From Arctopsyche grandis (Eukaryota > Arthropoda > Insecta > Trichoptera > Hydropsychidae), in assembly GCF_051622035.1 (NCBI RefSeq), contig NC_135367.1, forward strand, positions 12,932,501 to 12,996,500: a stretch of DNA of 64,000 bases, read 5' to 3'. How positions within the stretch are numbered: the first letter of the stretch is position 1; each line of letters starts with the position of its first letter. The notes beneath the pieces were generated by a model. The model was not told where the DNA came from and made no database searches. It saw nothing but the letters and a program-made list of their open reading frames with translations. Positions 15,621 through 47,272 of this stretch are shown piece by piece. The translations under genes were made by a program, and so were the position numbers.

Positions 15621-15737
15621 TTTGTCTTCTTTGATGTCTTCTCGTTTTCCCAACACTTCATGTCCGTCTCTTTTCCGCTGTTCCTCTTTGAGTCTTTCCG
15701 CTTTTCTCCACTTAGCGCGTCTGTTTTGAAACCACAC
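15621..15737 (-). CDS. Drgx: Drgx exon with end of recognition helix
   Basis: One hundred and seventeen bases, 39 codons (residues 95-133). It starts VWFQNRRAKWRKAERLKEEQ, completing helix 3 with Trp48, Phe49, Gln50, Asn51 and Arg53 of the homeodomain. Gln50 places the protein in the Q50 group, which favours TAAT-core sites, often as palindromic pairs. A strongly basic and acidic linker follows. The donor AAA|GTAATT lacks the usual last-base G but has a good intron side, and the next acceptor keeps phase 0 across a 77-bp intron. Confidence 0.96.
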
Positions 15738-28373: not shown

Positions 28374-30096
28374 CTCGATGGACTTTATTGAATTTGCGTT
28401 CGCGAATCAATCCCATTGTGTGCTGAACACCCAGACACTAAACGAAAGCGACCCGACGCAACCAAAACCCCATGAAAATCCATGAAAAAAATACTATTAC
28501 AGCTTATCAGACCGACCGAATTAAAAACAGATTAGTAAATTCAAAAATGCTGAATCATTTTCATTTTAAAATTCATATAATTTGAATTATAGACACCTAA
28601 ATGAATAAATATAAACTTTTATATACTTAATTTAATGTTGAACTGAACAATAATATTGCAGCGTGGAAGTGTAGAGGGGCTTACGAGATCGGAGTAAAAG
28701 ATGCATTAATGGTGGTAGAGGTAGTTATTTTGAACAAAATCGCCTAATATTTATACCCAGCATGTACTCTCAACACAGATATATCATTGGTCGATGGAAA
28801 TCAAAACCTTGTTGGCTGTTGTATACAGCTTTATACATCAATGCCATTTAAACGCAAACGCGGGATCAGGTGATCAGCGCAGTTAAACTATTGGTCGACG
28901 AGCACCAATCGTCCAATCTCTACGTTACAATATAGGTATGTTCATAATAGGGCGAATACGTACTAAATCAAAAGAGCCATTTCAAGAGAGTAAAACTTGG
29001 TCGCCTCGTGTTACTCTAAATTTAGAACATTCATTAGAAAAAATAAAGCAAAAACGAAGTTGAAAATATAGTTTTAAGCTTTTTCATGTCAAAATCTCTA
29101 TTATATACAGAGGGTGACAATAAATAAATCCGAAGTTCATTTCGATAGGGTGTACATGAGAGTCTTAGGAGACGAGATATACATTTATACATCGTAGTAT
29201 CCACCGAAGGCGCCAACTAACAATGATCATCCTTAACATTTTGTGAAAATGGATTGCAATTCGACACCGGACGATGGGATGTTTGTCCCGTCTCACTCTC
29301 GCTCCTCCTCACGACCCCTGTGTGAAAAGGGGATAGAAAATTTAGGTGGGACAGGGGGATTTTGGGCGCATCACGTGCCCTTCTCATTGTATTTATTTCA
29401 ATTCGGCTTTTGAGAATTTAACGTTTTTCCGCACGTCTAATCCACTGCCGTTCTTCATCCACTCTTTGTATTGCATTTTATGGTTTTTAATGTAATTTAA
29501 AAAAAACTCAATTTCAACTTTTTTAAATTATAGATTTATGTGTACTGTGCAAAATCTTCCAAATATGTAACACATATGTATGTACGTTTTATTTGAAAAA
29601 AAAGGAAAATAAATTTCCTACTAGACAGTAAACAAATGAAACAGCAACACTAAAAAATCTACTGCCCATAGGATTTTCATAATTTTATTTAAGCTAAAAG
29701 GGGTTCAAAGTTAATTGAATTCAGCTACATATGTAGGACTGGTATAAAAGTACACATACGTAGCTATTATGTCAAAAATTACTACTGATATAATATTTTG
29801 ATGGTAATTTATCATATTTGTGCGCTCGAGTCCTGGCGTCAGGAGGTATGAGACGTCCTGTGTGAACCTTCGAAACTTACCCTCGCGCAACTCATTCCCA
29901 AGAGGTTGCTTAATCCAACCCACATCTCTCCAGTCTCAACGAGTGATTCTCACTTTTCACATTTATATAAATACAACGTACGATATTATTACTTAAACGA
30001 CACACATCATGTCCACGAAAAGGGAAGCAGAAAAAAAAAACACGTGATATATTCTATTCTGCGAAATTGGAGTCGTACTAGTGAAATGTGACCCAC
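28374..30096. other. AT-rich non-coding DNA
   Basis: No gene recognised. A mixed patch at 29260-29470 has no open frame of note. Confidence 0.45.
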
Positions 30097-30198
30097 CTGC
30101 ACTCTGGCCTCCGTCAGGTTGATCTTCATCGCCAGATCCTCCCTGGTGAACACGTCTGGGTAGTGAGTTTGGGCGAAAGCGGTCTCCAATTCTTCCAA
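30097..30198 (-). CDS. Drgx: Drgx exon with homeodomain helices 1-3
   Basis: One hundred and two bases, 34 whole codons (residues 61-94), between a TTCAACAG acceptor and a GTGCAG|GTGGGT donor. It reads [20 protein letters not shown] and then [14 protein letters not shown], that is homeodomain positions 13-46. The exon ends between positions 46 and 47, the classic intron site of paired-class homeobox genes. YPDVFTRE and INLTEARVQ are diagnostic of that class, and FAQTHYPD favours DRGX over DMBX, ARX or ALX relatives. Confidence 0.97.
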
Positions 30199-30856
30199 CT
30201 GTTGAAAATTTGATGTAGAAAATAAAAGACATGTTAAAAAATTGAATTGGGACAAGAGTTTTTCTATTCAATGTCCCCTCTCTTTTGTAAACATATATAA
30301 TTCAACTATTATTATTATATATGTATATATTCGTATTTACATATAATTGTATATGCACGTCGCACTGTCAGGTTGATCAAAAATTCCAAATCACTATAAT
30401 AATATTAGATATGTATATGTATGAACATATGTAAATGTTTTATTACATTTTTTTTAATATGTACAACTAGGTTCAATGATTATTCCGCAAAAACGATCTC
30501 GCGCACTTCACTAAAATCTTGATCACGAAACATCTGGAACCCAAAAACTCCATCAATCGAAAATCACACACGCGAAATATTGTACAAACGAGAACTCGAG
30601 TGCCAGATATTCTGTATTCGCGATTTTTGTGGCAACAATTTTGCACGATCGCAATTTGCGCAAAAATCCGTTTACCGTACAACTAATCTATAGAATAAAT
30701 CTTATACCCTGTCTCCAATTTCTTTTAAATTGTTAATTACGCAAAATATTATTTCACATACCGTGACGAATCATGCTCAATCAAATAAAGAGTAGTCTCA
30801 TATCAGTATTGTAAATTCTAATTTTATGTATGTACAATACATAAGTAATTCATTAC
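30199..30856 (-). other. Drgx intron inside homeodomain helix 1
   Basis: A 658-bp phase-0 intron between homeodomain positions 12 and 13. It is AT-rich with short tacata motifs, and no element was recognised. Confidence 0.85.
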
Positions 30857-30948
30857 CTGTTGAAGTGTAAACGTAGTTCTATTACGTCGCTGTTTTCTTC
30901 TGACGAAAGTGTCATCATGTATCGCCGGGTGATATGAATAAGACGTAT
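30857..30948 (-). CDS. Drgx: Drgx exon with start of homeodomain
   Basis: Ninety-two bases between a TTTCAG acceptor and a CAG|GTAATG donor. With the one base carried over, it encodes residues 30-60: a Tyr/His/Asp-containing linker, then RRKQRRNRTTFTLQQ. The homeodomain begins at Gln49 (QRRNRTTF), so this exon supplies the basic N-terminal arm and the first part of helix 1 (homeodomain positions 1-12). RRKQRRNRTTFTLQQLE is the hallmark of DRGX proteins. The acceptor lies only about 120 bp downstream, in the transcript sense, of the nested 5S rRNA array. Confidence 0.96.
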
Positions 30949-31071
30949 CTGAAATAAAACGAAAATAAAGAATGAATTATGCAATGTATTTAATAATAAA
31001 ATAAAAAAGCAGAAGGCCAAGAATAAAATATTTGAATTGAACAAAATGTATCATGAAGCAAAAGAAAAGGG

Positions 31072-31189
31072 GCCAACGGCACGCGGTGTTCCCAAGCGGT
31101 CACCCATCCAAGTACTGACCGCGCCCAATGTTGCTTAACTTCGGTGATCGGACGAGAACCGGTGTATTCAACGTGGTATGGTCGTTGGC
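31072..31189 (-). rRNA. 5S ribosomal RNA, array copy 1
   Basis: A 118-nt gene that begins GCCAACGACCATACCACGTT and ends GCGTGCCGTTGGC, so its ends pair as in 5S rRNA. It has the internal promoter region, with a box A core AGTTAAGCAAC and the GATGGGTGACC segment further in. It is transcribed by RNA polymerase III with TFIIIA, and the product joins the large ribosomal subunit. It is followed by CCCTTTTCTTTTGC, with two T4 runs serving as terminator. This copy is nearest the Drgx exon at 30948. Confidence 0.95.
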
Positions 31190-31269
31190 GAGGGTCGCAC
31201 TAAGGGTAGATCATTTCAGCGAATAAAATTGGCATTGAACAAAATGTATCATGAAGCAAAAGGAAAGGG

Positions 31270-31387
31270 GCCAACGGCACGCGGTGTTCCCAAGCGGTCA
31301 CCCATCCAAGTACTGACCGCGCCCAATGTTGCTTAACTTCGGTGATCGGACGAGAACCGGTGTATTCAACGTGGTATGGTCGTTGGC
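31270..31387 (-). rRNA. 5S ribosomal RNA, array copy 2
   Basis: As far as I can see by eye this is identical to copy 1 over the 118-nt gene. The spacer differs by one base: the 3' flank reads CCCTTTCCTTTTGC, so the first T-run is only T3 and the T4 run comes further on. It should still terminate at the second run. Confidence 0.95.
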
Positions 31388-31467
31388 GAGGGTCGCACTA
31401 AGGGTAGATCATTTCAGCGAATAAAATTGGCATTGAACAAAATGTATCATGAAGCAAAAGAAAAGGG

Positions 31468-31585
31468 GCCAACGGCACGCGGTGTTCCCAAGCGGTCACC
31501 CATCCAAGTACTGACCGCGCCCAATGTTGCTTAACTTCGGTGATCGGACGAGAACCGGTGTATTCAACGTGGTATGGTCGTTGGC
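31468..31585 (-). rRNA. 5S ribosomal RNA, array copy 3
   Basis: Same 118-nt gene. The 3' flank is of the copy-1 type (TTTTCTTTT), so the spacer variant alternates along the array. Confidence 0.95.
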
Positions 31586-31665
31586 GAGGGTCGCACTAAG
31601 GGTAGATCATTTCAGCGAATAAAATTGGCATTGAACAAAATGTATCATGAAGCAAAAGGAAAGGG

Positions 31666-31783
31666 GCCAACGGCACGCGGTGTTCCCAAGCGGTCACCCA
31701 TCCAAGTACTGACCGCGCCCAATGTTGCTTAACTTCGGTGATCGGACGAGAACCGGTGTATTCAACGTGGTATGGTCGTTGGC
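31666..31783 (-). rRNA. 5S ribosomal RNA, array copy 4
   Basis: Same 118-nt gene. The 3' flank is of the copy-2 type (TTTCCTTTT). Confidence 0.95.
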
Positions 31784-31863
31784 GAGGGTCGCACTAAGGG
31801 TAGATCATTTCAGCGAATAAAATTGGCATTGAACAAAATGTATCATGAAGCAAAAGAAAAGGG

Positions 31864-31981
31864 GCCAACGGCACGCGGTGTTCCCAAGCGGTCACCCATC
31901 CAAGTACTGACCGCGCCCAATGTTGCTTAACTTCGGTGATCGGACGAGAACCGGTGTATTCAACGTGGTATGGTCGTTGGC
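31864..31981 (-). rRNA. 5S ribosomal RNA, array copy 5
   Basis: Same 118-nt gene. The 3' flank is of the copy-1 type (TTTTCTTTT). Confidence 0.95.
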
Positions 31982-32061
31982 GAGGGTCGCACTAAGGGTA
32001 GATCATTTCAGCGAATAAAATTGGCATTGAACAAAATGTATCATGAAGCAAAAGGAAAGGG

Positions 32062-32179
32062 GCCAACGGCACGCGGTGTTCCCAAGCGGTCACCCATCCA
32101 AGTACTGACCGCGCCCAAGTTTGCTTTGCTTCGGTGATCGGACGAGAACCGGTGTATTCAACGTGGTATGGTCGTTGGC
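32062..32179 (-). pseudogene. 5S ribosomal RNA copy 6, probably a pseudogene
   Basis: This is the most upstream copy. It matches the others except in the internal control region, where CACCGAAGTTAAGCAACATT becomes CACCGAAGCAAAGCAAACTT. These changes fall in box A, which TFIIIA and TFIIIC need. The copy also lacks the usual 80-bp spacer on its 5' side: unrelated sequence (aacgaaattgatc) starts one base beyond the gene end, so any upstream promoter element is gone. The 3' flank is of the copy-2 type. It is probably not expressed, though the rest of the gene is intact. Confidence 0.8.
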
Positions 32180-33440
32180 AACGAAATTGATCTAATTTTC
32201 ATATAGGTATGTACATCAATACAAACAAATTAAAATAACTATTTGTAATGTATGCATTTTCAGAACGATTATCTCAATTTATACCGCCGCGACAGTAATC
32301 AAATAAGAAATATACTATTCCAAAAAAAGAAATGCTTTGAATTGTTAATCTCAACCTACTAGTTTATACTTTGAGATATTTTTATACAAATTGTTAGTAC
32401 GGTTGCCGGTTTTTCGACACCCGAGGGATCTGCGGAGCGCATTAAAGAATAACGCGCTCGCCATCATGAGGGCATCGATAATTCAATTGGACCCTAATGG
32501 GTCTACCCTTTTGATCTGTAACGAAAATAAATACATAATGAAATTTGGGTGCAAAAGCGGACAGGAACCGAACGCTTCCCCATTCCCCCCTCTCTCCCTC
32601 GCTTCGCTATAATATCGTTAATCTATCGCTTTGATAAAGAAATATCCTTGAGCGCGTCATTCAGGATAACGCCCCACTATACGTTCGAAAGGATGCCATG
32701 TACCTAATGCAATTACTGCTCTCGATACAATTAATATGTACACATATTAAACAAAAAGCCCATTGCTTAATTAGTTATTAAGAAATTACAAAAAAATGCT
32801 TCCACGCTACTCCAATCCGCATCCTTAGTTTTATTTACAAAAATAAATTAAATCGCACTGACTAATGCAACAACTATTAAGATGGTTTCGAATAAGAAAA
32901 TAACACCCACAAAAAGAAACTTCACACTATAAACTACAGCATCACTTGCATCACAAGTCGAATTAAATTCATCATTATTGGATATAATATTATAATAACT
33001 ACGAGGAATAAAAAGCTCCAATACTCGAATTGCGACAGAGCAGTGTCGCCAGAGTCGTAATTTGAGAGTGCGCGCATGTAAACAATCATTTTTGCATCGG
33101 AACAATGCACCGCTTGCACCGCGAGAGAGATCGCATAATAATAATAATGACCCCCCCCCCTCCCATATATAAAATAATTGAGCGCGGCGAATGCTTTACA
33201 ACGGTCACACAATTCGCATTGCAAAATCGACCAAGACTATGTGACCGAATCGATCGTGACACGTGTCGTCGACTCATAATATTGCAACATTCTTAGATTT
33301 AATAGTGTCAAAAGTGAACTGGACGAACCTCCATATCAAAAATTCTACCTCTTTATATATACTTTGCGTTGTAATGCTCAAAATCCACCCATCTATGAAA
33401 TATGATATCTTCAATCACTTTGAGAGGAAGTAGAGCTGTT
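32180..33440. other. non-coding DNA upstream of the 5S array
   Basis: GC-richer patches lie at 32400-32600 and 33040-33290 (gcgcggcgaatgctttacaa), with short chance frames only. They may be regulatory, and no gene is called. Confidence 0.4.
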
Positions 33441-33793
33441 GAGATATACCTACATATGTATTATATGTAGTCGGTTACATCTCATTGATACATAAACAAA
33501 ATTTAACTATGATTTGGTCGGTAAATACATGTGTATTATATATGCAGATATATATTATAATATATATATATTTCGTAAAAATATCTCTGATATTAACATT
33601 GCGTCTTTAGCTTGTTGCTAAAGAGATATACCTACATATGTATTATATGTAGTCGGTTACATCTCATTGATACATAAACAAAATTTAACTATGATTTGGT
33701 CGGTAAATACATGTGTATTATATATGCAGATATATATTATAATATATATATATTTCGTAAAAATATCTCTGATATTAACATTGCGTCTTTAGC
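33441..33793. repeat. exact 171-bp tandem duplication with 11-bp spacer
   Basis: 33441-33611 and 33623-33793 look identical base for base. Both run from gagatatacctacatatg to gcgtctttagc. The 11-bp spacer ttgttgctaaa is the reverse complement of tttagcaacaa at the right edge of the second copy. Confidence 0.92.
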
Positions 33794-33981
33794 AACAAAT
33801 ATTATAACCGTAGACACCACGAGACATACTATACTTGTTTGCAGACAGATCCCTACATGGATGGCCACCTTTAGATATTTATTACAAGTAATACAAGTTA
33901 CAATACATTGTATGTTTCATTTCAACTTCTGTACTCCAGTTAAAGCAGGATGGTTGTCAAATTTATCCAAAGCTGTAGAAG
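33794..33981. other. non-coding DNA
   Basis: Nothing recognised. Confidence 0.4.
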
Positions 33982-34256
33982 CATAGACGGATCCAAGGGG
34001 GCGGGTGCCATGGGTGCCATGCCCCCCCCCCCCCCCTTGGGATGAATTTAATTTCATATATATTGTAAATTTTTCATATTTCCTGAATGGGGTTTTACAC
34101 CATAATAGTTTTTTTTTTTAAAATCACTACAATGTAAGTATTATATCTACTATTATTTACATCGTAATGTTAATCTAAAATCATATAAGTTTTAATTTTT
34201 TTTATGTTCAATTTCAAAATGGCCCCCTCCTTGACCACTTTCTGGATCCGCCTATG
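33982..34256. mobile_element. hAT-like MITE with 8-bp target duplication
   Basis: The terminal inverted repeats CATAGACGGATCC and GGATCCGCCTATG differ at one base. Both sides carry the direct 8-bp repeat TGTAGAAG (33974-33981 and 34257-34264). A C-run at about 34022 and its partner ggccccctcc near the right end form the subterminal arms. It is 275 bp with no coding capacity. A related copy lies at 48605-48785. Confidence 0.85.
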
Positions 34257-34264
34257 TGTAGAAG

Positions 34265-37080
34265 GTAGGTGAAAGACCGCTGGAGCGACCCAGAAGAAGA
34301 TTAGTTCAATCTATGAAAGGCTGACAACTCCGGATTCATTTAAATGAAAAGACATATTTTCCTGAAACAACCCTACTAAGACTCAGATTCAATATTGAAC
34401 AAGTAGAAGATGTCATTATATTAACAACCAAACAAACACTTGTAAGAATTCATTTTTTTCTATTTACAATGTTTCAATATTTTATGATCACGCTTCTGCT
34501 TGTATGCACAAATAATGTTCAAAGGAAAAAGGTATTAAGAAAAAAATGATAAATATGCTTCATTTCAGTGAAGATTTCAGTTGAAATAAAATACCAGATT
34601 CTTATTGGTCAACTAAGATATTCTGATTTACATCTCATTTGGGACAGCAAAGCGAACCAATGTTTCAATTTTGAAAGAGTTGAAAGAGTTTTGAAAGAGT
34701 TCGAAAGATCATCTCTCAATAATATGTTTGCGACGAATTCTCCAGTTTTTTTGATATATAGTGAGAAGAAACTACAGCAGACTGGAAAAGTATGTTGTTG
34801 TTGGTGCCGTAGAAGGGTAGAGAGGAAGAGAAGATCTCTTATACAGTGGACAGATCAAATCTGAGAAGATTGGAGAAAAGTCGTTAACCACACCCCAGCT
34901 TTTGAGGTCACGATCCTCAGTATTGAAGAGCCGACTATGAAGAATTTACAGCTCATGGGTTCAAAACAAAGCTCATTAACCAATCGGAATCCAAATCAAG
35001 AGTTTGCCCACTGCCAAGATAATTTAAATGAGGTAAGCCCATCACACAATACCATACCATATCAGACACCGCATACCACAATCCGCTCATAGCACTTTTA
35101 AACGATACACAGACACGTTAGTACGTGTCGGTAATTCAATATGACGTAGATATAGAACATTATTGGTCTAATAACAACTGTGTTATACATATCTGCGTGT
35201 CATTTATATCAATTTACGAATGTCAATTTGACACGACCTCGCGTAACGACAACATTCGTACATTACAGACTAAAATTAATTTAGAAGAGGGTCGACAATG
35301 AACTTGACAAACCAACATATCTGTATATGTATGTATAATGTATGTGCATGCTGGGTATAATCCAACAGTCAAAAGTCACATGTAGAAAGAGCGTATCGTA
35401 CGCCGTGCATCTATCATTACGATAAACGATCCTCAGTCGAGTACGTTCAGATCGGCGATTGAGCTAATAATTATATCCGAGATTACGAATTGCGATCTGA
35501 ATCTAGATACGATGCGATTACCTATTATATTATGGGGGTATGTACGGTGTCTATGGGATATCGAAACGTTAATATTCAAATCGAAGCGTCTTTTGATGTG
35601 CCGTTGCATTGTTGTAGTACATGTGTACATACATACAATGTACTTGTATTCTGAATATTGCATCGCGGTGAGTGCAGACTGTACATATATGCAATGCGAA
35701 TATGCTCAAATTAAATTGTAAAAACTGATGTATTTTTCTTTAAATTAATGGTTGGCTTAAATTTGTACCATAGCCGTTTCGTTTATACACATTTGTTCAT
35801 AATAAGTAATCAAATACTTATAGTACAAATACATACATATACATAGTATAATGTATTTTCAGCTTCAACCGATTGATTTTCAACCAATTTACTTGTCATA
35901 AAACCAATTTAAACTCACTCATATGCAAATTGAGTTTCCAATCATTAAATTTGACAATCTAGTTTCGTATAAATTCGTCAATTTAATACTGATATCAATT
36001 GAAGAGATTTAATTCCAAGCTAATTTCATACTATAGAACATTTATTACATTGATTTGTTTAATTACATTACATATTATATGTCTAACTATGTATGTAGTA
36101 TAATAAATATTAAATCCACGCTAAAAAAACACATTTTTTTTATCGTACAACGTATTCTACATACATATATGTACATATGTACATATGTACCGGTTTGGTT
36201 ATATTTAGAGGATTTATCCAGCATCCACCATTTCAAAAGATTAATAAATTTCAGCCGTTATCTGACTCACCAAAAATTTACTTTATGATATTAAATTTAA
36301 AACAGCATTACAAATAATAAAAATATTATTGTTTCGACGTTCGACGTATAATCTTTTTTTGCGAGTGGGGTGAATAACAGCAGCAGATAGGTTTGTCTGC
36401 ATGAATTTTTTAAATTTCCATTAAATTTATGGCTTTAATCCTCGTTAACAATTCACACGATCGTCCCATCAGTTTGGGGGGGAGGAGGGAGGGACGGAAA
36501 TTAAAAACACCCCACAGAGTGAGAGAGACCTTCAAACATCCATAACTTTCAATAACCCAATGATATTACGTAATTAAAATATATAAATAGTTGATTTAAA
36601 ACACAAATATAATAAAATTACCGTAACTTTTGAAACATCCGACACATTAAAAATATATAATCAATTAAAACCAAACTATGTAGAACAAAATAACATCTGT
36701 AATTGTATATACATACATACATATTTATGTATATACAATTATTGATCACCAATACAAGTTCAACGTAGATTGATTTAAAACCTGTCGAATATATTTAATT
36801 TATAAAGCAGGCCTTCGTGAAATAAAAATACTGAGCCTATATTTATCATTTTCTGAGATTAAATAATTTATTCATACGTTCCATATGTATTATTATTCAA
36901 TGTCACAAACCTATTATATGACTAACTATTTTTCTGAAAATAGTCGATTTTTATCATCTTGTAATTAAACTTGATATGTTATGAAACTTGTAAATTCAAT
37001 GAAGATTTTTTTTTTTAATTTTAAATAAAATTGTATAAATTATAAGTACTCAAAATGCCGCGATAGAGATGGCTCATTTT
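34265..37080. other. AT-rich non-coding DNA with possible LINE scraps
   Basis: Around 34795-34860 the plus strand reads RRVERKRRSLIQWTDQI, which resembles the end of a non-LTR polymerase frame but is too short to classify. The rest (35.0-37.0 kb) has no gene. Mixed patches lie at 35390-35560 and 36440-36540. Confidence 0.35.
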
Positions 37081-37690
37081 GTGTCAGATATTAGCAAAAA
37101 CTATTTATCCATAAGTTAAATTACTTAATGGCTCAATTCTATAATTTAAAACGACTACACTAATATATATTTTAAGAACTGATACTTGAAATGAGGTTCA
37201 TACAGATAAAAGAAAATCGGTTCAATAAACCAAAAGGTTTCTGATAAAAACATAAAAAACCTCGGTTCTCTAGAGTGAAAGTACTACTTCCGGTTTAGTA
37301 AAAAATATTTTAAAAATATTGAGGTCTAAAATTTATAATTTATATTACATGTAAACAATTTTCAATCCGATTCGACTTGCCGTTTGGGAAATAATTGAAT
37401 CCAAAAACTAAAAAAAGGAGACACCGATAAGGGGAGATACCATTTTCGGTCAACTTAAAAATTTACCTCGTATCAATAAGAATTTCAGTAACCGATACTA
37501 AGTTTCAGTTCGATAGGACTAACGGTGTTCAAAAAAATCCCAAAATACACAGACACACACACACATTTTTTTTAGATCATGAAAACGTGATCGATCCCGA
37601 GTTCGAATCAATCAAAATATCGAGTTCGAATTTTCGCATGATCACAAAACATCATCTACATATTGTTACTACGTACATATACATATAAAA
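37081..37690. repeat. probable dispersed repeat, unclassified
   Basis: The run from about 37060 through ctaagtttcagttcgatagg, an ACACAC run and tttttagatcatgaaaacg to tcgcatgatcacaaaac has the look of a worn transposon 3' region. No second copy lies in this window, so the call is an inference. Confidence 0.3.
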
Positions 37691-37960
37691 TAAAAATAAG
37701 TAAAATATGTACATCAGTAGAATGGGTCTGGGTGGAAATTGACTTGACGGAAAGTCGAAAGATGGAAAAGATGGGCGAAGTCATGGGTAGTGTCAACGAA
37801 TCCCCCCTTATACCCCCCATATCCACCCAGTCCTAATAGTCCTAAATAGAACTAAGATGTATTTTGATCATAATATAATGGGATGAGATTTTTGGCACGG
37901 CTGTAAAATAAATTACACGACAAATGTCAAAACGACATTTAATGTCAAATTAACATCTCA

Positions 37961-38270
37961 AAAATAGCTCGCGTTCAGAATCGGCGTTCGCCCGGCGAAT
38001 CAAACGTCAAACGGGTTGCCAGTAACGAAAATAAAATTTGACGTTTCAGTTTAATCATAACCAGTTACCTTTTCCCTGGGTAATCGAAATATCTTAGGAG
38101 ACAACAATTATTTATTTAAGGGTTAGGTTAAGTTAGGTTTGGCTCTATTCATTTTAGATTAGGTTCTTAGGGTCGGTATTTATTTTTGTCAAATTTTATT
38201 CTTGTTACTGGCAACCCAGTTGACGTTTAATTTGCCGGGCGAAAACCGTATCTGTCGTGCGAGCTATTTT
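37961..38270. mobile_element. foldback MITE with about 83-bp terminal inverted repeats
   Basis: The left arm aaaatagctcgcgttcagaa ... aataaaatttgac is mirrored on the right by gtcaaattttattcttgtta ... cgtgcgagctatttt. Both arms contain gggttgccagtaac or its complement and cgcccggc. The loop holds ttaggttaagttaggttt. It is 310 bp with no coding capacity. Confidence 0.85.
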
Positions 38271-39048
38271 AGAGAGGGGCATTCTTTTTATTTGCCGGGC
38301 CGATAAATGGTACCCTAATATAATATACATATAATCAATAAAAAGCATTTTAAAATAATAAAAAATACAGCTATTAATTAATAGAATAATTAAAAAAAAT
38401 TATGAAAAAAAACTGATGAGCTTTGCGAGCGTCGCACATCGTGTGTCATCATCGCCAGTGGCGCACGCCACGCACGACCAATTACGTTTTTAATTAATAA
38501 TTATTGTGCGTAAACACGGTTAGCTTTGTGCATAGAGGGCTTATGACGCCGGCGGTAATTATTGCGAACCGCACACACCACATGTAAATAGCTGTAATTG
38601 GTAAATTACAGCGATAACTGTTTTAACAGGACAGGCTTGTTGACTGCATTTCAGCTGCAAATATATCCGCCTCCCGCATGTGCATCGCTGCGCCGGATTC
38701 GCGGTCGTATTATAAATTTAAAACAAATAAATCTGTCCGATAATAATATGCAACCGTGTTGATTATAATACACACATGTGTACATTATATGTAGCTCGAA
38801 AGCATCGAATCGAGCCCGTTATCAGCCAATGCAAAACTGTCGAAGCAATGCAAAGGTGATATTACTTTGTCACAATATTTAATATTGTATTCGTATATCA
38901 TTATAAAAATCATTGAAAAATTTAAGTTTCTTAAAATAAATATGTAAAATTTTTTATCACGCTTACGACGTGTAACAAAATCTTCTGTAAAATAAATCAG
39001 TTGATTACAATACACACATATTGCATCTACGAGCTCCATCGATATTTT
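38271..39048. promoter_or_regulatory. candidate regulatory block in the Drgx intron
   Basis: From 38400 to 38720 the sequence is GC-richer and mixes homeodomain-type cores (taattaataattattg, taattggtaaattaca) with cgcacg-type motifs, without any open frame. This pattern suits an enhancer of a developmental gene, but the call is an inference from composition and motifs alone. Confidence 0.3.
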
Positions 39049-39465
39049 ACAGTCCAAATGTTCACTCCGATTCGTTCATGAACATACTAGTTGTTTATAC
39101 ACGAACTATTTTAGTTTGATTCCTAACAATCAAAAGCTATTCTTAAATACTCACTAGGTGTGGCATGAAACTTTTAGCTGTCAAAAATGCCAAATCACAT
39201 TACAACACATTGCTATAATTCCCGTTTCCACTAATATCAAAAATACTTATTGCAACCCAGGGTAAGTATACATATGTATATAGAGGATGGAACAAACGAT
39301 TGATAATACTCAAACTTATGCCTAATAGTTTGTGCATGATTTGCATGAACAAACTAATTCATTTGTCAATTTTTTTATTTTGTGTACCTACACTATAATT
39401 GGCCAGATTGGTTCGTGTACGTACAAACTAGTATATTCATGAACAAACGAAATGTACACTTGGCC
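39049..39465. mobile_element. MITE family with ACAGTCCAAGTGT termini, copy 2
   Basis: Aligns with 15910-16310 along its length. The left end is acagtccaaatgttcactcc, the right end gaaatgtacacttgg. It shares attgcaacccagggtaag and cttatgcctaatagtttgtg. The outermost right bases have been lost. Confidence 0.72.
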
Positions 39466-40928
39466 ATATGTACATAAAACGAACAATATTTATTTTGCGA
39501 GAATAACAATCCTTGAAAGTATTTTAAAATAAAGAGAATGACTAATTATGCCGGAAAAAATGTACACTTGAATGCAGTTACATAGTCTCGGGAATCCACT
39601 GATCCACTAGTACATATATATATATATACATATGTATATAGCTTGTTTTTGAAAAATTTTGTCTTTAGAATTCAAAATATTATTATAGATAATTAAAAAA
39701 AAATAGACAACTTTCAACAACTGTATTAGAAATAAATTATATTAGTAAAGATTTTTTGATTTATGATGAGCATTTTCTGTCAACGATCGCTGTTAACCGT
39801 CCTATATTTTGCATAGAGCTCAATTTAAATATTTATTGACAAAAAATATTCACATATACGACCAATTGAGAAATATGCATTGCACGAGAGAGACAGAGAT
39901 ATAGAGAGGGGGTGCATGCATCATTTGAATGTCATTCGCGTGTATGCAATTTGATAGGGGCCAATAAACATGGCGGAATTGCAGTATAACTAATTATACG
40001 TTTTAATGCTTTAATTGATTCCACTATTTAATTCACATCAACGATATCGCGTCATCACCGGTCCACCCGTTTATACCATTTGAATACATAATATTATATT
40101 ATAGATACATACACATGAAATAGTACCACATTTAATATTTCCTCTGCATATGATAGTAGTCGTATGTACATACATTAAAGTACATAGAATGTAATACATA
40201 TAAATATGTAAGTATATTACTATAGATTTATAAGCTTTTGTAGGTACTATACATATGTTTCGCAGTAAGTCAATAGCTATGCATATTGAGACATGATATT
40301 TATTTTGTTGTGCGTTGAGTTGTAAAAATATTATAACATTACTTCAGTATGTCTGGAACTATTTTTATTTATTAATACTATTAATACATAAAAATAATAT
40401 CGATTACAAATAATAAACGATGTGATCTGACGGCATACTTTCAATGCCTCACATCTTATACCTATGTATGTACATATATACAACAAAAAACAATGGACAA
40501 TGTATTTAGTAAGTAAAAAAATATTTTCATAACAAAATTATCTCATTTAATTAAACTCGTGTTGAATCTCACAAAGCTGACAATTTCTCAACATGACAAC
40601 CAAACAGGTCCATATGCTCTCCTATCATGTTGAGAAACCGGACATACTCAACAACAAACGAATTGCTGAAAACAGACGTTCTTGCCACAATACATTGGAA
40701 AAGTCGACATCCAGTCACATTCAGGCGTCCTATATTTAACCTCTGATAAAAGTGAAAGGCTGTCACTTATATATGTATAATATTATAAAAGAAGTATTTA
40801 AAAATGGCAACAATCCTTCTCAAAAATTTCGATTGCAAAGTCTAAGATACGTTGGAGAAAATCTAGATAAAACAAAAAATGGAAGTACCCACACTTTGTC
40901 ATGTATACATAGATATCGAAGAAACTTC
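39466..40928. other. AT-rich non-coding DNA
   Basis: No gene recognised. Confidence 0.5.
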
Positions 40929-41375
40929 TTTTTATTTATTTATTTATACAGGTAAAAACCCATTCAAGTAAATTACATAATAAAAACATATAATGAAATC
41001 TTACAATATAAAATTAACAATAAAAGAAAAAAGAAAATCAGAAAAGATGGTAACACAATATTTTGAATGGATTCTATGAACCGACCAAAAGTAACATTAA
41101 ATATGTCAATGTCCGTCTGATCAGCTAAGTGGTTAAAAAGCGCCATGGCTGTGCATATAGGAGTATTTAAAAGAATGTTAGTTTTCGCTATAATTGGCGA
41201 AAACAGAACACGTTTGCGTATTCTAAAATAATTTTCTGGTGCAAAGAAAGTGAATTCGGTAAGAATTGGTGGATTATAAATATTTCCACGAAGAACAAGG
41301 AGCATGTGTCGTAATAATAAAATACGACGACGAGATTCAAGACTGACTAAGCCCGTCATTCCCAAATTAAATTTG
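40929..41375 (-). mobile_element. 3' end of a Jockey/CR1-like LINE
   Basis: A minus-strand frame opens GMTGLVSLESRRRILLLRHM and continues with NPPILTEFTFFAPEN, RIRKRVLF and TDIDIFN. This is the usual C-terminal end of a non-LTR reverse transcriptase open frame (LxSLExRR, ..PxxxxR.., ..DIF). The 3' tail at 40929-40950 is a run of AAAT units. The copy is 5'-truncated, and the frame stays open for about 130 codons, so it is not very old. Confidence 0.75.
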
Positions 41376-42261
41376 CTTGGATTATAAAAGGATTATATAA
41401 TATAACAACTTTTGAATTATGCAACCTGAAAAATCGTATATGCTCAAAAGAACAATAAATATTTTAAAATAAAAATCTCATCACGATAAAAAAAACACAA
41501 AGAACGAGTCGCACTTAGTCGTCATTAAAAATAATAACAAACAAAATATAATATAAAAAGGGTGGTCGGAAGATAATCTAATTGAATTGCGAGAATATGA
41601 GGGGTGGCAGGGTAGGGGTTTTATCGCGATTTTCAGGTACGTCGTGAATATTTAATGGGGGTGGCGATGGGAGATGCTCGCAGATTAGACTCTATATATA
41701 GTAGTGCAAATTGCGGACTAAAAACTAAAGTGGTGAATTATAACAGTGCAAAATGTGGGACGCATATGCGCGCGCTCGGGTCGTTTAGACCCCACGTAAC
41801 CCCCTCACAACCGCCCCATACTCCTTAATCGCACCGCCCTTTCGTTGTCGGTAATTGCGTTAACGCATTAAACATGCAGTCGCGCAGGTGTCCGGCCGGG
41901 AGCGAATCCTTCGGGAAATAGGAAAACTCTGCGCCGACACATGGAAAAATCATCCATTATATGTATGTATGTATATAAACTTTCAATTTAAATCACATAT
42001 TATTCGATTTTTTTATGAAATAAATGTTTAATAACGATGAATAGTTTCTAGTTAGAGCACCCCATGCACAACTACGCACGCCTATGTATACCCTGTGTCA
42101 AGAAACAAATCGTCAAAAATAAAGATTCACTTCAACCGTGCACGAGATCTGACATACTAGATTTTTTTGTAAAAACGGTCATATGTATAATACAATTAAC
42201 ATTTATGACCTATTTATCTACATATATGTACATACATATGTATATAAAAAATCAATGTTTG
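41376..42261. other. non-coding DNA with GC-rich patches
   Basis: 41565-41950 is mixed in composition (ggggtggcagggtagggg, catatgcgcgcgctcgggtc) with a TATA-like ctctatatatagtag at 41690 on the plus strand. No coding sequence follows. Possible regulatory DNA. Confidence 0.35.
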
Positions 42262-42524
42262 TCTATTTGACTGGCTGTCGCGAATGGGTTCCTATATGTT
42301 TTCTGTGAAAAAAATCGCCGAAAAACGGGAATGAGTGGCATTGCAACGCAATAATTTCAAATGTTTTCGCGTCGCCACCTCCATTGTTAGGGTAAATAAA
42401 CAAACAATTGAATAATTTCAAATGTGTTCGCCGCCTGCGTTTTTTCGCTGATAAACGCTGGATAAGTCAGATTACTACGACTTTAACTCGGAAACGGGAA
42501 AAACGGAAACGGGAATTCAGCTAG
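42262..42524 (+). mobile_element. short Helitron-like element
   Basis: It begins TCTATTTGACTGGCTGTCGC and ends gggaattcagCTAG followed by T. Inside, caataatttcaaatgttttcgc and ttgaataatttcaaatgtgttcgc form a direct repeat. The hairpin near the end is weak, so the class is tentative. Confidence 0.45.
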
Positions 42525-43100
42525 TAATATATAATACTGCAAACTAAATATTTATAACAAACCCCCTTTATACTCTTTTATAAAGTTCACATATAAATTG
42601 AAATAAATTCATCATTTTATTTATGTTAGGTGTGTCTATTATGGGGGCATTGCGGCTGTTCCCTTATGTGTCAGTTGTAATCTGTATTAGTATTTGAAGA
42701 TACCCTCCCCCTCTACCTTAGGGATAACACAGACAATGAGAGGATTACATCTGTCAAAAGAGTGATGTTGCAAAGTATGTTGAGAATGTTTGGTGTAGCG
42801 CAATGAAAATGCACTTTCCTTTAGGTATTGAATTTAATCTATATATGTACGATTGTATGTTATGTAGACTTATTCTTTAAAAAAAAAGTACAACAAATGT
42901 GCTATAGATTATTTATTACTTTATCTATGTACGTAGTAACAACAGATGAAGTTTTTTTAATATAAAGTTGTACGAACCGCAACGTAAACAAATATTGTCA
43001 AATGAACAGGCGCCATTTAAAGATTAGAATATATATAGTTCACATTTATGATAACAGAAAATAATATTGTTAAAAAATGAATCAAAATTAAAAATATAAG
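42525..43100. other. AT-rich non-coding DNA
   Basis: Nothing recognised before the tRNA-Ile terminator. Confidence 0.5.
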
Positions 43101-43174
43101 TGGCCCATGAGGGGATCGAACCCGCGACCTTCGCGTTATTAGCACGACGCTCTAACCAACTGAGCTAATGGGCC
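43101..43174 (-). tRNA. tRNA-Ile (anticodon AAU)
   Basis: A 74-nt cloverleaf. The acceptor stem GGCCCAT pairs with ATGGGCC, with discriminator A at 43101. The D-arm contains TAGCTCAGTTGGTTAGAGC (box A), the loop CTAATAA carries anticodon AAT at 43140-43138, and the T-arm contains GGTTCGATCCC (box B). There is no intron. A T5 run at 43094-43090 follows as a polymerase III terminator. It lies in a Drgx intron in the same orientation as the host gene. Confidence 0.97.
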
Positions 43175-43806
43175 AGATATAAGACGTGGACGAGCTAAGC
43201 AAGAGTACATCTCAGTATGTTGTGGCTAATTTTATATAATCATCGTGTTGTAATCAGTTGTGCAACAAAATATCATTTGGCAGAAATGGTCTTACAAATC
43301 GATGTCATTTAAAATTTAAGTATAAGCAAACAAGTTTGGTAGGCGAGAAATGCAAGCATCATTTTTATCAGCAATATTAGGCTATTTAATAATAAACTGA
43401 GAGTACATATGTGCCATATATTGTAGAAATCAATACGATGTAAATAATATATTTGACGTTAGCAACAATATGTGATTACTTATTTAAAAATTTGGTTTTT
43501 ATACAATTTTCGAATTTTTCTATACATTTGTTTAAGCAATTCACAGATAAGCATGTATACATTTTTTTTTAATATTTGCTATTTTTAAAATGTGATTATG
43601 TTTTTATAGTTAATTTCTCATTTTTTTCGCAATGCATGATTATAAATTCCAACTCGGTTTCTATTATTTTCGACTTTTCCTAGCACGTCTTTTATTTGAT
43701 GGATGCTTTCCGACACAACATTGCTGATAATATGTAGGTGAATAAATATTAAACTTTTATATTATCAATGTTTGAAATTTATTTCAAAAACAGTATTAAA
43801 ACCAAC
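43175..43806. other. AT-rich non-coding DNA
   Basis: Upstream flank of the tRNA-Ile gene; no gene or element recognised. Confidence 0.5.
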
Positions 43807-44273
43807 CAGTGCTGTACAGTCGGTTCAAAATTTAACGACTCCGACTTCAACTTTAATGATTTTAGTAAGATGGACTTTTCTTGCCAACGTGTAAAATTAT
43901 TATTGTTTAAACACGAAACTAATAGCGATATTCAAAATATAAAAACTTAAAGGAATTCAAAAAAAGAAAATAAAAACAAGTATAAGACAGAGAAAACAAT
44001 TGGTTTTGCCTACAAGACATCAAAATACGCGATTCAACGATTCTATTTATAGTTTAATTTAAATTCATGATTTTTTATAAAGAAATTAATAATTTCAATT
44101 TTATTTTATTTATATCGGTGGATTTCCTTCCGTAAAATTGGAAACTATTGTTGACGCATACCGTAATAAAGAAAATAATAAAAAAAGGAATCTGAATTGG
44201 TTGATTTTTTACGACTTCGACTCCGATTGAAATGCTCCAACTCCACGACTCCGACTCCGACTCCACAACCCTG
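43807..44273. mobile_element. non-autonomous hAT-like element
   Basis: The ends are CAGTGCTGTACAGTCGG and, reversed, CAGGGTTGTGGAGTCGG. Both continue into repeated gactccgact motifs. The 8-bp flanks aaaccaac and aaataaac agree at six positions, as a worn target duplication would. It is 467 bp with no transposase. Confidence 0.7.
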
Positions 44274-44690
44274 AAATAAACCCTAATTTTTATATAAAAA
44301 AAATTAAAGCCAGAGTAACCAAAAACAATAAAAATTCTAAAAATCCCACTCAGATATCCCAATCCCGGTTTTTTTTTATTATTTACTATCGACATTTGGT
44401 ACACAAGTTATCTATGTACATACATACAATACATATTAAATGTACCACTAATTGTTGAATTACATCCCAATTGTTGCAATATCTTACTCAATTTAAACTT
44501 CATACAATACCCAATAACGCGATTATCAAAATAGACCCAAAATTTTACCTCCTGAACGTCGGACCGTTCGAAACATGCATTTCAAGATAGCACATATATA
44601 TTTATAAATGAAGTCATTTATAAATAGAACTGTATAATTATGACTGGGGAATCGGGAAAGACTTAAAACTAGCGAACACTGTTTCGAAGA
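44274..44690. other. AT-rich non-coding DNA
   Basis: Upstream flank of tRNA-Glu; no element recognised. Confidence 0.5.
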
Positions 44691-44762
44691 TCCGGTATGG
44701 TCTAGTGGCTAGGATACCTGGCTCTCACCCAGGAGGCTCGGGTTCGATTCCCGGTACCGGAA
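44691..44762 (+). tRNA. tRNA-Glu (anticodon CUC)
   Basis: A 72-nt cloverleaf. TCCGGTA pairs with TACCGGA and the discriminator is A. TGGTCTAGTGGCTAGGATA forms the D-arm and box A, the anticodon stem CCTGG/CCAGG holds loop CTCTCAC with anticodon CTC at 44724-44726, and GGTTCGATTCC is box B. There is no intron. A T4 run follows at 44769. It is antisense to the Drgx intron in which it lies. Confidence 0.97.
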
Positions 44763-44932
44763 TAATTATTTTAATTTTTTTATAAAATATCAAACCTACG
44801 TACACAAAATGATCAATAATATTAAACGATATTTTAGGGTGAATAACCATTTTGTAATTAAATTGCAATTATATATTAAAAAAATTCTACTTTATATAAA
44901 TGGAATCCAATAAGAATACGCATTGTTATTTA

Positions 44933-45218
44933 GGTAAACGGACTACTCGTCATATGTAAACCAGTCACAGGACAACCGGTCGCTCTAGATCAGTCACACG
45001 TGATCACCCGTCACACTAAAACTGGTCACGAGAAAACTGGTCACACCCTAAAATCGATCACGAGAAACCTGATTGACCAAATTTAGGGTGTGACCAGTTT
45101 TCTCGTGACCAATTTTAGGGTGTGACCAGTTTTAGTGTGACGGGTGATCACGTGTGACCGATCTAGAGCGACTGGTTGTATTGTGACCGGTTCACATTTG
45201 ACTAGTAATCACCGAACC
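44933..45218. mobile_element. long foldback MITE with perfect 8-bp target duplication
   Basis: The two halves are mirror images: gaccggt/accagt motifs, gctctagatc, cacacgtgatcacccgtcac, actaaaactggtcacgagaa and their complements. The right arm carries one extra internal repeat containing tttagggtgtgaccagtttt. The direct repeat GTTATTTA stands at 44925-44932 and 45219-45226. It is 286 bp, almost wholly stem. Confidence 0.88.
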
Positions 45219-45226
45219 GTTATTTA

Positions 45227-46233
45227 ATGTTTACATTTTTAGATTCGTTCAAAATATACATATGTACAAGTAAAAAGATAACCTTTGGTTAAACATATGT
45301 ATATCATATTTATTTAATTTACTATAAAAGTATTATTACTATAACCATCACTCACTAAGATTGTTTTGAAATCATAAAAAATATTTGAATACCATTCACA
45401 TCAAATCAAATACACATATGTACGTATTAGTATACCGAAGATCATTTTACAAAATTTATATTAAAAAAAAATTGACAATGGTTGAGAATTGAAATAACTT
45501 AAACTAAGCATTCTTGATATGCCAATTTAAATAAAGTGTATCCAAATAATATAAATTCAATTATTCTCCGTACATTACGATTCGTACGAAATTATCATTG
45601 ACAAATGGAACACAGCTCATATGTGCGTAAATGCCATTAGAATTAGCTCCGTAGTGATTTCCATCAAAATTATCATCGTCGATGTTGTCATGGCGTGCGC
45701 CCGCCACCCACCACCACCCCATCGGTGAAGAAAAACAATGATTCGATTGTCGGCACGGTGGGATTTAGCCGTTGGGCCAATTAGTCGTCGGGTGTGCAGC
45801 TCGTTAACAACCCTATATGCGGACAAATTGCTCGGAAAATTGATTTCAAACACGACGGGCGTCGCCGACCCCATTGTTATCACTACACGGTTACACGCTC
45901 CATTGTTTGTCAAATGCTATTGCACACATCACACCCTCCCCTGATTGTTTTCCTCTTTTTTTTTAGCACGTTCTTCCACCAACTGGTGTGAGCTATTCAA
46001 CAGTAACAATTAAACTCATCCCGATTTAAAAAACTATTAGCGTCTAATGTATGTATGTATAGTTCGATTTTTTTTCTATGTATATATGTACATATTTCAA
46101 CAAACGAATACATAAACTGAAAACCACGAGTGTACGCAAAATCGCAAAAAAGATTTTTTACTATAGATATGTATATATTTTACAATAATTATTTTCCGAT
46201 ACCTTCTGGAATATGAATCAGTCGAAAATAAAA
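45227..46233. other. non-coding DNA with a GC-richer patch
   Basis: 45600-45960 is mixed in composition (cgcccgccacccaccaccac, cacgacgggcgtcgccgacc) and lies 1.2-1.5 kb inside the Drgx intron from the start-codon exon. It has no supported coding frame. Candidate regulatory DNA. Confidence 0.35.
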
Positions 46234-46534
46234 TCTTATGAACATGAAACCGAAACGGCGTGTATAATTCGTTTCTGATTGGCTGTCGTCAAAGTCGTTT
46301 CTGATTGTCTGGATTGGTCAAAGACGTTTGTGATTGGTCGGTCGTTAAATAATATAATTTTTTTTCGATTCAAATAAATTTAATAACAAACCAAATGAAA
46401 ATATTTTTCATGATTCCAATGTATTCTCACTACTAGACTGCATTTTTATTTCCAGTTACTTTTATTATATCCGTGCTTAAAACTAAAAGAGATCTTCAAA
46501 AGTGGAACCGAGCGAAGCCGGGTAGCACCACTAG
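46234..46534 (+). mobile_element. non-autonomous Helitron-like element with minisatellite
   Basis: It ends aaccgagcgaagccgggt, a short gap and CTAG, as at 6727. Near the 5' side three or four irregular repeats of cgtttctgattgg-tcgtcaaag lie at 46268-46348. The 5' edge is an estimate. Confidence 0.6.
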
Positions 46535-47160
46535 TAAAATAATATTATATCAAATATCTACCTCACTACTTTGGTTTTCGTTTATTAATATTTCATTGAT
46601 TTTAGAATTGTAGGGTAAAATTTCGCAAAGTTGTGTTCCTGATTGACAGGTGTAGAAAATTTTGAAAAACGATGAAAATTCAACAAGAATTGAATACATT
46701 TTACAATTTGCCACCCTCTTATCTATGTATAATAGTCCGTCGTCATCACTTACAGTAAAATAGACATTGTATCAGTACAAAATATTGAGAATCTGTGATC
46801 ACTTTCGATACGAACTAGTCAAACTAATAGCTCGTCGCTCGGATCGAATTTGGGACAAATCCCCAAATTGTTACCCGAATAATAGAAACCGACGATTGGA
46901 TTATTTCGCATTGATTCGGATTGTTATTCCAGTAATGGACCAGTTATTTATTTATCTTCTGCTACGTCGATCGCGTCAATCATCTGTCGTATATACGAAA
47001 TCAAAACATAAATACAGTATATATACATAGGTACAAACTCGACATATGTATCGATACGCATAGATACTAATTCCAGTTCTCTATCATCAAACGTTGAATT
47101 TAAGACATAGTTACGAGGTAAATTGATACATTTTATTTAATACAGGTACATGGTACTCAC
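46535..47160. other. intron DNA next to the Drgx start-codon exon
   Basis: AT-rich, with a mixed patch at 46800-46990 lacking splice-consistent coding sequence. Confidence 0.45.
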
Positions 47161-47272
47161 ATGGGTGTGTAGGTGTGAAGGGGTAATCAATTTGAGGCAG
47201 TCTGTGCTGATGGGGTGGTAATGAAGGCGGGCAATGATAACAAAACATGCCGCGGCCCGCCGTTCCAGACAC
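47161..47272 (-). CDS. Drgx: Drgx start-codon exon (N-terminus)
   Basis: The exon begins after a TTGCAG acceptor and ends at a CAT|GTGAGT donor. The ATG at 47248-47246 opens MFCYHCPPSLPPHQHRL and the exon supplies residues 1-29 plus one base of codon 30. I chose this ATG because the MFxxHCPP opening matches the vertebrate DRGX N-terminus and the next codons run in phase into the homeodomain exons. Positions 47272-47249 are then 5' UTR, although they also lack an in-frame stop, so a longer N-terminus from an upstream exon cannot be excluded. The segment is clearly more GC-rich than the DNA on both sides. Confidence 0.93.

Follow-up and report, generated by a model that had tools for sequence, protein, structure and literature searches.

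The 64,000-nucleotide (nt) window analysed here, C13:12932501-12996500 of the trichopteran Arctopsyche grandis (C13 being contig NC_135367.1), contains a tandem array of six 5S ribosomal RNA (rRNA) genes within the first coding intron of a Drgx-like homeobox gene. Most probably, the array is a dispersed 5S locus: a small, old and locally homogenised array of the C13 198-bp (base pair) family that happens to lie in the Drgx-like intron. This intron is probably one old landing place and not a special control device. The kinship of the array can be read from its spacers, which differ by 17 to 42% between the Drgx array and the other arrays, the gene bodies being mostly identical, and the locus offers a tractable case of 5S dispersal.

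Six tandem 5S rRNA genes in a Drgx-like intron

An Rfam gathering search of the window (cut-off of 38 bits for RF00001) returned six 5S matches, all on the minus strand and each covering positions 1-120 of the 120-position model (Table 1). The E-values, which range from 4.8e-23 to 1.5e-20, indicate that these matches are not due to chance. Tandem Repeats Finder (TRF) assigns to the array a period of 198 with 99% matches, and the genes lie exactly 198 bp apart. The five spacers of 79 bp each differ at a single T/C site and have a mean identity of 99.2%, so that the locus has the form of a tandem 5S array with head-to-tail units of gene and spacer that are homogenised locally. The T/C site alternates across the five spacers and the 3' edge, a pattern with a chance probability of 0.1.

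Genes 1-5 show no differences across their 119 nt. Gene 6 comes first in transcription order and departs from them at gene positions 52, 53, 60 and 61. As four random sites among 198 would fall within 10 nt with a probability of 0.0003, the four changes may reflect a single event, or else a decayed edge. An earlier prediction, made from the sequence of the window alone (hereafter the original prediction), had placed the array at 31046..32179. Its end at 32179 stands, whereas its start has to be moved, as self-comparison extends the array homology to 31021, within a decayed stretch, and the first gene begins at 31071.

Four minus-strand coding exons of the host gene join into one open frame of 133 codons, which encodes a full Pfam homeodomain (PF00046, 57 of 57 positions, E-value of 2.2e-25). 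The homeodomain is of the paired class, and the best-matching solved structures are those of aristaless and aristaless-like 4. The N-terminal start MFCYHCPP is one that we take to be that of Drgx; the gene is therefore termed Drgx-like, a putative name resting on this motif and on the paired-class homeodomain. Because the exon at 47248-47161 ends in phase 1 and the exon at 30948-30857 starts in the matching phase, the array is intronic, occupying 7.1% of the intron. Six full-length 5S genes on the Drgx strand, with exons in phase around them, thus bear out what had been predicted. The exon that starts the homeodomain is likewise confirmed to lie close to the last 5S gene, the distance being 122 nt from the 3' end of that gene, not 124 nt, and 72 nt from the edge of the array.

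Distribution of 5S genes across the genome

The genome searched comprises 475,669,232 bases in 189 contigs. A 79-nt 5S core with up to three mismatches matched 82 times, 74 of them exactly, and the reversed control gave 0 matches. The search for the 5S family scored 47 of 13,411 first-look candidates and gives a lower bound. At the fetched loci, 86 copies have more than 110 nt aligned, and 68 of them are identical over 119 nt. These 86 copies consist of the 82 pattern matches, gene 6, the first gene of the C9 array, a gene of the C13:28.70 array with an inserted base and a 90% copy at C13:28701983; more diverged copies elsewhere would escape this count. In both contig collections searched, the exact (degenerate) 5S core pattern gave 0 matches in viral contigs and 0 in genome contigs.

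Grouped at 50 kb, the 86 copies form 22 loci on nine contigs, 18 of which are without a tandem block. These 18 loci hold 25 single-type genes, 21 of them exact. The tandem blocks contain six genes (Drgx), 14, 4 and 17 genes (C13:23.57-23.60 Mb), 12 genes (C13:28.70 Mb) and seven genes (C9:32.23 Mb). The original prediction had assumed that 5S arrays normally lie in dedicated clusters; this does not apply here, and the idea of one main 5S cluster has to be corrected for this genome.

Several single genes have neighbours of their own. Five of them, L043-L047 (C2:3888155, C2:5181215, C2:5790596, C2:13181822 and C1:961712), sit within a shared repeat, whose main aligned stretch including the gene is 742-3257 nt long and 85-96% identical between pairs; hence the intact 5S gene is part of a segment that has been duplicated or is mobile. 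Of the 27 fetched loci scanned, which overlap in part, three have transfer RNA (tRNA) genes near single 5S genes: tRNA-Glu at L015 (one), L028 (three) and L052 (one), the last also with tRNA-Gly. At L037 (C9:28048912 and 28049222), two inverted 5S genes are separated by ~190 bp.

Spacer kinship of the array

The mean identity of 99.2% among the Drgx spacers compares with 83.4% to the spacers of the C13:28.70 Mb array, 69.0, 67.4 and 69.5% to those of the three C13:23.57-23.60 Mb blocks, and 57.5% to those of the C9 array. The similarity to the C13 arrays reflects homology: a Drgx spacer aligns with one C13:23.60 spacer at a score of 28.5, against a best score of 12 in 500 shuffles. In a FastTree tree, the Drgx and C13:28.70 spacers group together with a local support of 0.87. 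Since the spacers are 83.4%, 67-70% and 58% identical to those of the other arrays versus 99.2% within the array, the sequences support an old array that belongs with the 198-bp family on the same contig, not a recent copy.

A genome DNA search with the Drgx spacer, which detects close copies, found six matches at its own locus and none elsewhere; among them, the array's own 3' edge matches spacer positions 32-79 at 90%. Inspection of the flanks of the fetched 5S copies also revealed none with a near-identical Drgx spacer. Among single genes, the pairs L012/L013, L023/L027 and L027/L028 are 75-80% identical over 325-408 bp; as these stretches include the identical gene, the flanks alone fall below 75-80%.

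Array edges and possible exchange with single genes

The sequence upstream of gene 6 is unlike the spacer, with 10 identities in 40 positions (shuffle mean of 10.8), and 67% of shuffles reach its 30-nt score. The first genes at C13:23573515, C13:28705410 and C9:32230338 behave similarly, with 26%, 21% and 65% of shuffles reaching the score, respectively, though the 30-nt upstream edge test is a weak one. By contrast, spacer-like sequence is kept upstream of the first gene at C13:23603207 (0 of 500 shuffles reach the score), and the C13:23595477 block starts with an intact spacer upstream of its first gene, identical over 30 nt. These two blocks rule out that every array has a sharp edge at position +1.

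The first C9 gene shares a homologous upstream flank with the single gene C8:19849265 (L048), with a z of 11.4; the two loci are 84.8% identical over 348 nt including the gene. On its downstream side, the first C9 gene is followed by array spacer. The 3' flank of the C8 gene is spacer-like as well. Judged from these alignments, the C9 and C8 genes suggest that single genes and arrays exchange sequence inside the gene, in a direction that is ambiguous because of the spacer-like 3' flank of the C8 gene. A short AATTGA, a candidate target-site duplication, was seen near both edges of the Drgx array, by eye only.

A 5S-derived retroposon or short interspersed nuclear element was considered and rejected, as the array spacer or its remnant follows each of the six genes and no A tail was visible by inspection. 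A retroelement of the Cassandra type, carrying 5S sequence in its long terminal repeat (LTR), was discarded too, the only direct repeats longer than 34 nt in 29000-36000 being the array and a 171-nt pair at 33441-33793. Inspection of the spacer together with this direct-repeat comparison rules out the spacer as a retroposon tail or an LTR.

Probable transcription competence of the 5S genes

Behind each of the six genes, a run of four Ts (T4) begins at nt 3 or 8, and 85 of the 86 copies have a T4 no more than 25 nt from their 3' end. Genes 1 and 6 contain no internal T4, and genes 2-5 share the sequence of gene 1; each gene is thus followed by an RNA polymerase III (Pol III) terminator and has none inside. 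Genes 1-5 have the sequence common to 68 of the 86 fetched copies, including the internal promoter region. Gene 6 differs from it at four positions which, on the promoter box positions that we assume, fall in the internal promoter region.

A 25-nt upstream matrix was built from 17 single-gene loci and scored against 20,000 window positions. The inner Drgx genes reach p 0.006, above 99.4% of these positions, and gene 6 reaches p 0.015; for the left-out training genes the median p is 0.003, although the matrix score of two of the 17 is below zero. Inner genes of the other arrays reach p 0.006 (C13:23.60), 0.018 (C9) and 0.07 (C13:28.70). The edge genes reach p 0.007 (C13:23573515), 0.03 (C13:28705410), 0.29 (C13:23603207) and 0.00025 (C9), the last being homologous to a training gene. 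From these sequence features, genes 1-5 are likely competent for transcription, and gene 6 may be weak.

Origin of the array and alternative explanations

We propose an old arrival of the array in the intron, with a C13 array as its source or companion, perhaps followed by internal copying two units at a time. As the gene bodies are without drift, selection, gene conversion or both would keep them alike. The array would be spliced out of the Drgx pre-mRNA and have no dedicated role there. Some points weigh against this reading. The T/C alternation has a chance probability of 0.1; selection by itself could account for the identity of genes across loci; the genome search with the spacer, limited to close copies, also missed the 83% relative; and the upstream matrix is weak, as seen from the p of 0.07 for the C13:28.70 inner genes, the 0.29 of one edge gene and the two of 17 left-out genes with a score below zero. 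That a gene with no relation to the arrays was amplified within the intron is ruled out by the homology of the spacer to those of other arrays. The original prediction had offered a recent transposed segment of the main cluster. That a block of several units was lately copied from a C13 array would agree with the unit length of 198, the strand and the contig, which the Drgx array has in common with the C13:23.57-23.60 and 28.70 Mb arrays. However, a near-identical spacer is absent elsewhere, both in the genome search and in the flanks of the fetched copies, and the best mean identity to another array is 83%, where a recent copy is expected near 99%; this refutes a recent transposition from the arrays seen in this assembly and leaves it very improbable overall. 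An artefact in which array reads were wrongly joined into the intron deserves equally little credence. Tandem repeats are error-prone, and the copy number of the array could be collapsed and may be wrong. Nevertheless, a join with the reads of another array is unlikely because the spacer is private among the fetched 5S copies. In addition, the right flank (601 bases) has one genome match and the left flank (636 bases) one full-length match, the window is internal to C13 (12.93-13.00 of 29.5 Mb) and without N, and the flanking exons splice in phase. An interspersed repeat within the left flank has at least 45 further matches (40 of 2,535 candidates scored). Genome searches with the left and right flanks found no second allele or empty site.

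Array arrival has a more specific version, compatible with the preferred reading of an old dispersed locus, in which the Drgx intron once held a solitary 5S gene, and a break there was mended through invasion of an array 5S gene and copying of several units downstream. Such seeding would leave gene 6 with the 5' flank that the solitary gene had, and the 3' edge ragged. Gene 6 indeed abuts, right at +1, a flank whose similarity to the spacer is at the level of shuffles, the first C9 gene joins a single-gene flank to array spacer, and the 3' edges examined end at differing points of the unit. However, an abrupt +1 edge is not universal (two of the six array blocks, C13:23603207 and C13:23595477, have spacer-like upstream sequence), the C8 gene with its spacer-like 3' flank is perhaps a collapsed array and not a seed, and the flank of gene 6 has no second match in the genome. 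Seeding is therefore conceivable but somewhat unlikely. A wider form of this idea, which we consider rather unlikely, would treat single genes and arrays as states of one cycle, in which a solitary gene captures units by one-sided homologous copying within the 119-bp gene, arrays collapse back to one gene, and identical gene bodies persist on different chromosomes; the Drgx array would then be a captured array and the gene at its 5' edge the former solitary gene. The array may also be imagined to regulate Drgx, for instance by recruitment to the nucleolar periphery, Pol III interference near the acceptor or nucleosome positioning. Its edge 72 nt before the exon would place it suitably, and 5S transgenes in mammalian cells offer an analogy for a possible role in Drgx, as far as the consulted part of the source goes (PMC3261910). 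If so, the locus would provide a natural experiment on Pol III genes within a developmental gene transcribed by RNA polymerase II (Pol II). However, the array does not extend into the last 72 nt before the exon, which have a pyrimidine-rich tract; on the Drgx strand, simple patterns revealed no donor, acceptor or AATAAA-type polyadenylation signal within the array; and some of the 22 loci would be expected in introns. A regulatory effect is thus quite improbable.

Comparison with known 5S systems

The comparisons below are bounded by the parts of the cited articles that were consulted. In Tribolium castaneum, the 5S unit is 192 bp long (121-bp gene, 71-bp spacer), with four arrays of 6 to 201 genes in addition to dispersed copies, and the genes are 99.4% alike versus 94.1% for the spacers (PMC11202950). 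The A. grandis genome likewise has small arrays and dispersed copies, a T run after the gene, and genes more alike than spacers. In the consulted part of that article, flanking genes are named for two arrays, no intron is mentioned and four copies are dispersed, whereas A. grandis has one intronic array and 25 single-type genes at 18 loci. Lepidoptera are described as having low copy numbers of 5S genes that are scattered or loosely linked, with ten clusters cited for Bombyx mori (PMC8190105); the scatter is similar here, and the gene context of the lepidopteran loci is absent from the source text as consulted. In the bug Chariesterus armatus and some grasshoppers, 5S genes are spread through the karyotype with pseudogenised copies (PMC11354594), which resembles the spread seen here; intron placement is not described in that text as consulted. 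Mammals have 5S-derived pseudogenes, and 5S transgenes have been studied near Pol II genes (PMC3261910). The Drgx locus shares with these the position of 5S sequence near a Pol II gene, but unlike the single pseudogenes or transgenes, its genes 1-5 are intact and tandem. No mention of "intron" was found in the consulted part of an article on Anopheles non-coding RNAs (PMC4300560), and no report of a tandem 5S array within a protein-coding intron was found among the top-ranked open-licence PubMed Central literature. Small, dispersed 5S arrays are already known in insects; the Drgx array is ordinary dispersed 5S ribosomal DNA and mostly a well-resolved example of known behaviour, the unusual detail being its intronic placement.

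Feature coordinates and other features of the window

Table 1. Features of the 5S array and of the Drgx-like host gene, in window positions
Feature	Position	Strand	Basis or remark
5S rRNA gene 1 (last in Drgx transcription order)	31071..31189	-	RF00001 109 bits; same sequence as genes 2-5
5S rRNA gene 2	31269..31387	-	RF00001 109 bits
5S rRNA gene 3	31467..31585	-	RF00001 109 bits
5S rRNA gene 4	31665..31783	-	RF00001 109 bits
5S rRNA gene 5	31863..31981	-	RF00001 109 bits
5S rRNA gene 6, upstream edge copy	32061..32179	-	RF00001 99.6 bits; 4 changes; 5' flank unlike spacer
Whole array, ~5.85 units of 198 bp	31021..32179	-	Self-comparison and spacers
Array 3' edge: 35 nt exact spacer and 15 nt decayed spacer, then other intron sequence	31021..31070	-	
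Drgx-like first coding exon (MFCYHCPP...)	47161..47248	-	Ends in phase 1 before donor GTGAGT
Host intron, 16,212 nt, first coding intron	30949..47160	-	
Exon starting the homeodomain	30857..30948	-	Begins in matching phase after TTTCAG
Next homeodomain exon	30097..30198	-	Joined frame and PF00046
Exon ending the homeodomain (VWFQNRRAKWRK...)	15621..15737	-	Joined frame and PF00046

Nine further open reading frames of the window were compared with Pfam, none of which scored above the curated cut-off. The same Drgx intron holds tRNA-Ile(aat) at 43100-43174 on the minus strand and tRNA-Glu(ctc) at 44691-44762 on the plus strand. An interspersed repeat at ~30470-30695, in the next Drgx intron, is mostly 83-89% identical to copies on many contigs. 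At 33441-33793 lies a perfect tandem duplication (TRF period of 182, 1.9 copies), for which the genome search listed its own full-length match and two short partial matches. The segment at 45013-45132 matches several microRNA precursor families below threshold, one of these on both strands, and is perhaps the remnant of a hairpin transposon.
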